A DNA stretch of 43,822 bases from Candidatus Wolfebacteria bacterium RIFOXYB1_FULL_54_12 (lineage in GTDB: Bacteria > Patescibacteriota > Minisyncoccia > UBA6257 > UBA9933). The notes under the pieces were generated by a model. That model worked only from the letters and a program-made list of their open reading frames with translations, had not been told where the DNA came from and made no database searches. How positions within the stretch are numbered: position 1 is the stretch's first letter; each line of letters starts with the position of its first letter. Shown here in pieces: positions 9,160 through 12,731 of this stretch. The position numbers and the translations under genes were made by a program. The stretch spans positions 88,707 to 132,528 of the forward strand of contig MGIT01000003.1 in the NCBI GenBank assembly GCA_001793895.1, given 5' to 3'.

Positions 9160-12100
9160 CTATGCTTTTCTGATGCCAAACCAAATGCGATCACCTTCGA
9201 GTACCAGCTCGGAGTACGCATCAATATGTTCCGGATCCTGGGCAAATATGATTACCTTTGCCCCCACTTCCTTTTTCAATAATTCTTCATATTTTTTGAC
9301 CATATCGCCCAATGCGGCGCTGTCGACAAACAGGGTTATTTTGTCCTTCGGCTCGTAGCCCGCGTCCTGCCGAAGCCCTTGGATCATGCGCACACTTTCG
9401 CGAATGATTCCCTCTTCCAACAGTTCCGGTGTGATACGCGTATCGAATTCGACAATGCCCTCGACGGATTGCTTTATGATGATATTCTTTACATTCACTT
9501 CGTCGGCGAGGATCGCCAACAATTCCTTGTTTGTCTTCAATCCTGCGATGGTCGACTGGACCGTCAACGAAGACAACGGCTGGCGCACCTTGATACCCAG
9601 TTGCGCGCGCTTTGCGAGCGCCACGCTTGCCAAGGTCCGCACCTCGGCCATCATTACCCCTTCCTTTTTATGCGCCTTCAAAACTACCAACGATGTGACT
9701 TTCGGCCACGCATCCAAATGCACGGATGCGTTCTTTTTCGTATTCAACGACTTATACAATGCATCTGCAAAGAACGGCGTAAACGGCGCCATTACTTTGC
9801 TTGTTTCAAACAAAATATACGCGAGCGTTTTTGAAGCGAGCTCCCAGTCTTTTTTGTCGTCCGGCTTTTGGAACCGGCGGCGCGAACGGCGCACATACCA
9901 TGTCGACAGGTCATCGACAAACTGACCGATCGGGCGCACCGCGCGGTCAAGTTCATAGCTGTTCATGGCACCGGTCGTTTCTGCGATCAATTCATCAAGC
10001 CGACCCAGCATCCATGTATCCAACACATTTTTCGTTATTGGTTTTTGGTTTTTGGTTATCAGTTGTTTCCCGTACATGTCATAAAAACTATACACGTTCC
10101 ACAAGCGCGAGATAACCTTCTTGTACAATTCATCGACACCCTTTTCCGAAAAGTTAAGCACCTCTCCCCGTACGATCGGCGATGACACCAGATATAGTCG
10201 CAGCGCATCCGCGCCATATTTGTCCACGATCGTCATCGGATCCGGATAATTCTTCAGCTTTTTTGACATCTTTTGTCCGTCTTCGGCAAGAACCAATCCC
10301 GTTGTTATGACGTTCTTAAATGCAGGCTTTCCAAACAAGCCCGTCGAAAGGACCATGAGCGTATAGAACCAGCCGCGTGTTTGGTCGACCGCTTCGGCAA
10401 TGAATTCTGCCGGAAAATTCTTTTCAAATTTCTTTTTATTTTCAAACGGATAATGCGCCTGTCCGTACGGCATGGAGCCCGACTCAAACCAACAGTCGAA
10501 CACATCCGGTACGCGCTTCATGGCGTGCCCTTTTGCGCATTGCAATTCCACCCGGTCGATGTACGGGCGATGCAGATCCAGTTCATAATTTTTGTTATGC
10601 GGAATGACGCTGAAATCCAATTTCTTTATTTCGGCATTGACGATAAAATCCTTATTCGGCTTACGTATGGCGACCGCTTTTCTGCCGTCAAACCCTTGCA
10701 CGCCCGCAAAGAGCGCCCAAATGGGATACTCATGACTTACGATCAAAATGTTTTTCCCCGCCTGTTTCGCATCGAGTTCGTAGATGCATTCCGTCATGCG
10801 CTTTTTTACATCATTCAAGCTCTCCCCTTTCGGCGCGGTTTTGATGAACTTTTCTTCCAGCGATGCAAAATATGCATGGTAGTCCCCGATCGGTTTGTCA
10901 TCAAATATGCCGCAGTCGATCTCGCGCAACCGCTTATCAATGACGATTTTCGATCCGTACCCGAGTAGCTTTGCGGCGAGCTCCGCCGTTTCGTGCGCCC
11001 GTGCAAAATCAGACGATACGATCAGATCTATCTTCTTTCCTTTGAGCTGCTTTATGAATGCCTTAACCGATTTTTCTACCTGCGCCTTGCCTTTATTCGT
11101 CAGATGATATGTGTTCTTCGGATTTGAGCTTACCAAATTGAGCGCGTTATTCTGCGACTCGCCATGACGCAATGCAAAATAAACATTGCCCGATTTCGGC
11201 ACGTTCTTTTTGATATCCGCGATGGAGCCCATTACTTTTATTTCGCCGCACTCATCGCAGCGCCATACCGGAATGGGCGCACCCCAAAACCGCGAGCGGG
11301 AAACTGCCCAATCGCGCGCATCTGCCACCCAGTTGCCAAAACGCCCCGTTTTTATGTGCCCCGGGATCCAATTGACCTTTTTGTTATTTTCCACCAACCC
11401 GTTCTTCGTGTCGCGGATCTTGGTCACTTCCACGAACCATGATGATGTAGCGTAGTTCAGCAACGGCGTTTCACAGCGCCAGCAGTGCGGATACGAATGG
11501 ACCAGCTTTTGCTTCTTGAGCAAATTACCATTGTGCGCAAGCCACTTGATGACCTCTATATCGGTCGCCTTGTGGTCTTCCCGCGGCTTTACGGCCAATC
11601 CCGGGAAATCCTTCACCTCCGGCTTGAAATGCCCGTCCATGGCCACGTGCTGTACGAATGGCAGTTTTTCTTTGCGAGCTACCTCCATATCGTCGGCGCC
11701 AAATGCCGGCGCGATATGCACGATGCCCGAACCATCTTCCATGGTCACGAAATCTGCCGCATAGACCTTCCAGCCATTTTCGCGGTTCTCCAATTCTCCT
11801 TTTTGGTAATAATCAAACAACGGCACATATGCTTTGCCGACAAGATCTTTCCCCTTGACCGTTTCCACGACCGCATACTCTCCATCGATCACCGCAAGGC
11901 GGTCTTTTGCAAGAATATAGCGCTCCTTGCCCGCTTCGGTCTTTACTTCAATGGTCGCATATTCCGCCTTTGCATTGATCGCCAACGCGACATTGCCCGG
12001 CAATGTCCACGGAGTGGTCGTCCATGCGATGAAGTAGGTATTTTTTTCTCCCGCAACGGCAAACTTTACATAGGTCGATATATCATCGATGTCCTTATAG

Positions 12101-12687
12101 TTCAACGCAACCTCAAAATTGGACAACGATGTTTCGCAACGCGGACACACATGCATCGACTTGCGTCCTTCATATACCAACCCTTTATCATAAAGCGTCT
12201 TGAATACCCACATTACCGATTCGGTAAAGCTGGCATCCATTGTCTTGTAATCTTTCTCCATTTCCACCCAGCGGCCGATGCGCGGAATGATATTTTTCCA
12301 ATCGTGCGCATATGACATGACGCTCCCGCGCGCGGCTTCATTAAAAGTCTCTACGCCGAGATTTTCGATATCTTTTTTCGTTTCAAGACCCAGCTCCTTT
12401 TCGATTAAATTCTCTACCGGCAATCCGTGGCAATCCCAACCCCAGCGACGCTCCACGCGCTTGCCGTTCATGGTCTGATATCGCGGAACAACGTCCTTAA
12501 TGACGCTCTGCAAAATATGCCCATAGTGGGGCAACCCTGTCGCAAACGGAGGTCCATCGTAAAATACATACTCCCCTTTCGGAGCAGGTTTTTTAACCGA
12601 TCGTTCAAATGTTTTATCCTGTTTCCAAAACTCCAAAACTTCCGATTCCACCTCGCTCGGAGTAAACTTTTTTCTTCCCTGTAGCAT
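9160..12687 (-). CDS. ileS: Isoleucyl-tRNA synthetase with an inserted histidine-phosphatase domain
   Basis: 1175 aa from the ATG at 12687 (MLQGRKKFTPSEVE), preferred over an upstream start at 12723 because homology begins here. The class I catalytic core is intact: HYGH (54-57), the CP1 editing domain with TWTTTPWTLPGN, DLHRPYID (about 704) and KMSKK (806-810), then a helical anticodon-binding domain. It charges tRNA-Ile. Between GEIKVMGS and DLHRPYID, about residues 490-700, lies a complete histidine-phosphatase-like domain: RHGES (catalytic His at about 508), a DFARAHETAELAAKLLGYG helix, and a second His in IVSHEYP (652). A TTGGTTTTTGGTTTTT-type repeat near 10035-10066 encodes the low-complexity insert LITKNQKPITKN. 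The core resembles the IleS2 branch. Confidence 0.96.
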   Translation of the reverse strand: MLQGRKKFTPSEVESEVLEFWKQDKTFERSVKKPAPKGEYVFYDGPPFATGLPHYGHILQSVIKDVVPRYQTMNGKRVERRWGWDCHGLPVENLIEKELGLETKKDIENLGVETFNEAARGSVMSYAHDWKNIIPRIGRWVEMEKDYKTMDASFTESVMWVFKTLYDKGLVYEGRKSMHVCPRCETSLSNFEVALNYKDIDDISTYVKFAVAGEKNTYFIAWTTTPWTLPGNVALAINAKAEYATIEVKTEAGKERYILAKDRLAVIDGEYAVVETVKGKDLVGKAYVPLFDYYQKGELENRENGWKVYAADFVTMEDGSGIVHIAPAFGADDMEVARKEKLPFVQHVAMDGHFKPEVKDFPGLAVKPREDHKATDIEVIKWLAHNGNLLKKQKLVHSYPHCWRCETPLLNYATSSWFVEVTKIRDTKNGLVENNKKVNWIPGHIKTGRFGNWVADARDWAVSRSRFWGAPIPVWRCDECGEIKVMGSIADIKKNVPKSGNVYFALRHGESQNNALNLVSSNPKNTYHLTNKGKAQVEKSVKAFIKQLKGKKIDLIVSSDFARAHETAELAAKLLGYGSKIVIDKRLREIDCGIFDDKPIGDYHAYFASLEEKFIKTAPKGESLNDVKKRMTECIYELDAKQAGKNILIVSHEYPIWALFAGVQGFDGRKAVAIRKPNKDFIVNAEIKKLDFSVIPHNKNYELDLHRPYIDRVELQCAKGHAMKRVPDVFDCWFESGSMPYGQAHYPFENKKKFEKNFPAEFIAEAVDQTRGWFYTLMVLSTGLFGKPAFKNVITTGLVLAEDGQKMSKKLKNYPDPMTIVDKYGADALRLYLVSSPIVRGEVLNFSEKGVDELYKKVISRLWNVYSFYDMYGKQLITKNQKPITKNVLDTWMLGRLDELIAETTGAMNSYELDRAVRPIGQFVDDLSTWYVRRSRRRFQKPDDKKDWELASKTLAYILFETSKVMAPFTPFFADALYKSLNTKKNASVHLDAWPKVTSLVVLKAHKKEGVMMAEVRTLASVALAKRAQLGIKVRQPLSSLTVQSTIAGLKTNKELLAILADEVNVKNIIIKQSVEGIVEFDTRITPELLEEGIIRESVRMIQGLRQDAGYEPKDKITLFVDSAALGDMVKKYEELLKKEVGAKVIIFAQDPEHIDAYSELVLEGDRIWFGIRKA

Positions 12688-12701
12688 GCCTATACCATAC
12701 C

Positions 12702-12731
12702 AAAAAACCCCGCTCCTGAGCAAGGAACGGG
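12702..12731 (-). terminator. Terminator after the AAA/DUF4143 gene
   Basis: On the minus strand CCCGTTCC pairs with GGAGCGGG (one mismatch), followed by TTTTTT. It lies between the ATPase stop and the ileS start. A TATGGT box just after the T-run may belong to an ileS promoter. Confidence 0.75.

Follow-up and report, generated by a model that had tools for sequence, protein, structure and literature searches.

The window, a stretch of 43,822 nucleotides from the genome of Candidatus Wolfebacteria bacterium RIFOXYB1_FULL_54_12, carries on its reverse strand an ileS gene whose product contains a histidine phosphatase domain (Table 1). The reading frame at positions 9160-12723 is open for 1187 codons with a TTG at 12723 as its upstream limit, and translation likely starts at the ATG at 12687. 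The product scores 867.9 bits against the equivalog model TIGR00392 (cut-off 621.4), and it has the HIGH and KMSKS motifs, the CP1 editing residues and the anticodon-binding domain that define an isoleucyl-tRNA synthetase (IleRS). In Pfam terms, a piece of tRNA-synt_1 is followed by His_Phos_1, a second piece of tRNA-synt_1 and then the anticodon-binding domain. An alignment of 58 relatives shows conservation of HIGH, KMSK and the CP1 editing residues, in agreement with an initial sequence-only reading of this DNA, which had described the synthetase as intact on both sides of the insertion. A full-length model of the protein is confident (pLDDT 91.1, pTM 0.85) and its structural matches are IleRS structures. 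The best of these are type 2 enzymes such as the eukaryote-like IleRS2 of Priestia megaterium (8c8v), which shares the synthetase, editing and anticodon domains and their motifs with the window protein.

Table 1. Features of the ileS gene in the window. Positions are those of the window; residues are numbered from the 1187-codon frame.
Feature	Position	Strand	Basis
ileS, isoleucyl-tRNA synthetase with inserted histidine phosphatase	9160..12687	-	1175 aa, TIGR00392
Class I HIGH-type motif PHYGH	12517..12531	-	Sequence and relatives' alignment
First Cys pair of zinc module, CDEC, before insert	11248..11259	-	Alignment with insert-free relatives
Whole inserted stretch, residues ~506-714	10582..11208	-	Alignment breaks against solved IleRS and insert-free relatives
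His_Phos_1 domain, residues 518-683	10675..11172	-	PF00300, E 2.5e-29; fold model
RHGES (519-523), phosphate-binding Arg519 and nucleophile His520	11155..11169	-	Arg and His invariant
Arg575, second phosphate-binding Arg, in SSDFARAHETA	10999..11001	-	Invariant
Glu601, proton donor, in LREID	10921..10923	-	Invariant in IleRS site-1 inserts
SHEYP (663-667) with second catalytic His664	10723..10737	-	His invariant
Second half of zinc module, CAKGH, after insert	10525..10539	-	Alignments
KMSKK motif of synthetase	10258..10272	-	Sequence and relatives' alignment

The insert lies between the two Cys pairs of the zinc module, where it adds approximately 205 residues in place of a loop of about eight. 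The alignment with the best solved IleRS stops at residue 505 and restarts at 715/716, and because the solved chain has only about eight residues in this interval, some 200 residues of the window protein are extra. The sequence-only reading had placed the domain at 10573-11222, which differs from the boundaries in Table 1 by a few codons, and had regarded it as foreign to standard IleRS enzymes. Indeed, solved IleRS enzymes lack the domain and hold only the short loop at this site. An extra enzymatic domain on IleRS is also represented by the family NF040702, in which it is a GNAT domain and hence another enzyme; the window protein reaches 313.7 bits against this model, whose cut-off is 1999.

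The inserted domain matches the branch-1 histidine phosphatase profile PF00300 with 102.8 bits (cut-off 21.7). When modelled alone, it adopts the histidine phosphatase fold with high confidence (pLDDT 96.4, pTM 0.92), and the closest solved folds are the Hydrogenobacter phosphoserine phosphatase 4ij6 (TM 0.81), Rv2419c (up to 0.79) and PhoE (0.74). It has in common with known branch-1 enzymes (PhoE, CobC, PspA-type and Rv2419c) the fold, the RHG motif and the R-H-R-E-H catalytic set. However, it differs from them in its placement within a tRNA synthetase, in a conserved sequence, His-(G/E)-x-P-x-W, that surrounds the second catalytic His, and in scoring below the thresholds of all named NCBIfam subfamilies. 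The best such match is the phosphoglycerate mutase model dPGM_arch (NF038349; 91.6 bits, cut-off 225), and the scores against the alpha-ribazole phosphatase CobC (TIGR03162; 64 bits, cut-off 162.9) and the phosphoserine phosphatase PspA (NF045917; 53.4 bits, cut-off 350) are likewise too low for membership.

The five catalytic residues show no variation among 53 IleRS inserts from the order and beyond, or among the site-1 inserts of every source (148 of 148). The RHGES motif and the catalytic-type His in SHEYP, both picked out in the sequence-only reading, are therefore confirmed, and the RHG pocket, whose completeness that reading had left to be checked, has every catalytic residue in a confident fold model. 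Between the window and the nearest species, dN/dS is 0.106 for the phosphatase and 0.013-0.048 for the rest of IleRS, values that indicate purifying selection on the phosphatase part that is weaker than on the remainder of the protein. One IleRS insert, in a frame of 1087 aa, lacks about 33 phosphatase residues between the acid and the GE segment and keeps its catalytic residues.

The window genome (825 kb, 98% complete) has a single PF00300 match, which is the IleRS insert. Within the genus, a further three species have the same insert, and one of these is represented by a single-contig genome of 1.0 Mb. Comparison with related bacteria, as had been proposed, revealed that the insert is widespread, with an inserted IleRS in 71 of the 91 nearest genomes. 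In four of these 71, ValRS likewise contains a phosphatase, at the position homologous to that in IleRS. At least ~140 of the 238 genomes of the class have long frames with a strong match inside them, a rough figure counted by eye in which individual classification covers the fetched loci. Relatives with names are Patescibacteria, including Yonathbacteria, Taylorbacteria, Nomurabacteria, Zambryskibacteria and Kaiserbacteria among others, names which suggest that the class is Paceibacteria (Parcubacteria). In other classes the occurrence of the insert is scattered. Among the best 80 loci of one pattern scan there was no clear case outside Patescibacteria, and nothing was found in viral contigs. 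Thus, the phosphatase noticed in the window is real, but it is not a one-off: it is a trait of most of a bacterial class, with separate-gene forms and with further insertion sites in the phylum.

Insert-free IleRS proteins are spread over the IleRS tree and occur also in close relatives, a pattern that requires at least nine changes. Three of them retain the linker that is normally found after the insert, and look as though the insert had been lost. One genome has two IleRS genes, both of which contain the phosphatase. A free PF00300 protein is missing from 48 of the 71 genomes with an inserted IleRS, including the window genome, and the other 23 encode further free histidine phosphatases alongside the insert. 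A strict trade-off between the insert and any free histidine phosphatase is therefore only partial and holds only for the IleRS-type copy, which was found together with an inserted IleRS in no genome examined. Three genomes of the window's order (G076, G079 and G028) have neither the insert nor any other PF00300 protein, which suggests that the function is dispensable or replaceable.

The free IleRS-type copy is a protein of approximately 195 aa, found in many genomes with an insert-free IleRS, and it groups among the IleRS inserts in the phylogenetic tree. In eight genomes from four families, it is encoded directly upstream of ileS in the order argS-phosphatase-ileS-recO, and in several the phosphatase and ileS frames overlap by a few bases. 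Five genomes of one family have this order, or show it as far as the contig reaches, with a four-base overlap in several; the free phosphatase of one genome in this family has 184 aa. Two genomes have a small gene between ileS and recO, and a third has the same order as these with a larger gap. In genomes with the insert, argS and recO also commonly flank ileS. The separate copy lies away from ileS in three genomes (G032, G043 and G062). At one locus, the order is argS-phosphatase-recO and ileS is absent from its usual place between them. This separate form, with its coupling to ileS, is the strongest evidence that the phosphatase belongs with the synthetase. The free copies nest inside the inserted copies with moderate support (89-93), a placement that is not decisive as to direction, whether the insert was cut out or a neighbouring gene was inserted.

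Histidine phosphatases are also carried by synthetases in other arrangements. Outside the class, members of family f105 have an IleRS with two phosphatases in tandem, another IleRS has two at separate sites, and a third, of 1572 aa, has one histidine phosphatase domain at each of three sites, with Asp for the catalytic Glu in the second domain. ValRS proteins outside the class contain one phosphatase, located at the zinc module in some and following the TLGWP stretch in others. In total, four insertion positions are used on the shared IleRS/ValRS scaffold, one of which is the junction of the catalytic and anticodon domains. All of the long carriers that were classified are either IleRS or ValRS. 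In two genomes of one family, a histidine phosphatase was observed at the C-terminus of a protein of 437-462 aa.

Topology tests reject a single clade of all synthetase-borne copies (AU p 1.6e-8), a single clade of ValRS-borne copies (AU p 0.002), and a clade of IleRS site-1 inserts that excludes the free copies (AU p 0.004). One clade that unites the IleRS site-1 inserts with the IleRS-type free copies is compatible with the data (AU p 0.64), and these sequences may form one family. The same result means that an independent origin of the site-1 inserts of f105 is not established. The tree tests indicate that other histidine phosphatases have been captured by IleRS at further sites, and by ValRS, several separate times.

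The explanation that we favour, with modest confidence, is that the inserted domain is a branch-1 histidine phosphatase, competent in catalysis, that serves as a built-in partner of IleRS. It draws on features that can be read from the sequences, namely the invariant catalytic set, the confident fold, purifying selection, wide inheritance, the free gene upstream of ileS and the further captures by IleRS and ValRS. In the expected reaction, His520 would be phosphorylated and then hydrolysed, with Glu601 donating a proton. Because the loop between the Cys pairs tolerates a domain of 200 residues, the synthetase presumably remains able to aminoacylate and edit. In relatives that lack the insert, this phosphatase is often the product of a gene of its own, located elsewhere or beside ileS, and this suggests a partnership between the phosphatase and protein synthesis. 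Presumably, selection favours adjacency to IleRS because the target of the phosphatase is a ligand, a product or an inhibitor of the synthetase. A small phosphomonoester would be the likeliest class of substrate, given that the nearest solved folds are small-molecule phosphatases, although this is a weak argument; tRNA or the synthetase itself would be less likely. Several observations count against a partnership. Some insertion sites, such as the catalytic/anticodon junction, have no obvious proximity to the active site of the synthetase. Moreover, there are genomes without any PF00300 protein and others with the copy away from ileS, as noted above. Finally, the phosphatase changes faster than the core of the synthetase (dN/dS 0.106 against 0.013-0.033), which is what a domain under less constraint would be expected to do. 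As a tentative extension of the favoured explanation, the phosphatase reaction might be part of aminoacylation or quality control for branched-chain amino acids, which would make it a third activity of IleRS and ValRS in Patescibacteria. It could, for example, remove a phosphorylated inhibitor or a mis-recognised ligand, whether as an inserted domain or as the product of a coupled neighbouring gene.

The main rival to a partnership is a passenger role, in which an ordinary phosphatase of metabolism or scavenging simply has IleRS as a constantly expressed carrier, with the two activities independent of each other and the fusion serving to save a gene or to keep stoichiometry. The many relatives with a fused gene and no free PF00300 protein (48 of 71, the window genome included) are what would be expected if the insert meets a general need, and both the faster evolution of the phosphatase and its resemblance to small-molecule phosphatases fit as well. 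However, such a passenger would be expected in many hosts, whereas the long carriers that were classified are confined to IleRS and ValRS and stem from several separate captures, and coupling to ileS is frequent for the separate form. The obvious general roles that were tested are also already filled by other genes, those for cofactor-independent phosphoglycerate mutase (iPGM) and inorganic pyrophosphatase. We consider independent activities less likely than a partnership.

It is improbable that the fold is kept only to brace the zinc module or to contact tRNA, with catalysis irrelevant, an alternative that the sequence-only reading had raised in the form of a structural module. Although the insertion interrupts the catalytic domain at its zinc module and the full-length model is confident, the catalytic residues never vary in 148 copies, so that a role in structure alone is unlikely; a free gene for the same protein occurs as well, and close relatives have an insert-free IleRS. 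Still less credible is that the insert is the organism's glycolytic phosphoglycerate mutase (dPGM) housed in IleRS. The best NCBIfam match of the domain is a dPGM model and the genome has enolase, but the score is far under the family cut-off, and an iPGM (PF06415, 189 bits) is encoded on the same contig as enolase. The glycolytic mutase is thus ruled out for the window genome, as is a substitute for inorganic pyrophosphatase, for which PF00719 is present; with its own copies of both enzymes, the genome does not rely on the insert to replace either. A chimeric assembly, which the sequence-only reading had named as a possible artefact and which has nothing in its favour but the oddity of the architecture, is excluded by the insert's presence in three congeneric species, including one with a single-contig genome, and in at least ~140 genomes of the class.

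Few enzymes are as conserved as aminoacyl-tRNA synthetases, and only rarely does the catalytic domain of one contain a further enzyme. The sequences indicate that many very small Parcubacteria have an IleRS with a complete and apparently working phosphatase in the middle of the protein. Repeated capture of histidine phosphatases by the sister enzymes IleRS and ValRS, at several sites and together with a coupled free gene, points to a chemical task common to both that is apparently unnamed so far, and the free form beside ileS offers a small protein with which to seek the substrate. No published description of this architecture was found in the open-access papers that were searched. An NCBIfam search returned the model for IleRS with a GNAT domain and showed none for IleRS with a histidine phosphatase. 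We assume that sequences of this kind are surely already deposited in protein databases under automatic domain labels, and thus the novelty lies in recognising the pattern rather than in the sequences.

A partial parallel is provided by the yeast TFIIIC subunit tau55, which has a histidine phosphatase domain (mentioned in PMC10781861). This domain is likewise attached to tRNA-related machinery and is apparently dispensable for the main task of its host protein. In contrast to the IleRS insert, it is an N-terminal domain of a eukaryotic transcription factor and is confined to some yeasts.

Among the IleRS genes without a phosphatase, three from a single family of the window's order (f27) contain 12-22 in-frame TGA codons. 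Nearly all of these codons align with columns that are occupied by Trp in relatives (for most, 60 of 60). On the basis of this correspondence in the IleRS genes, the family appears to read TGA as Trp.
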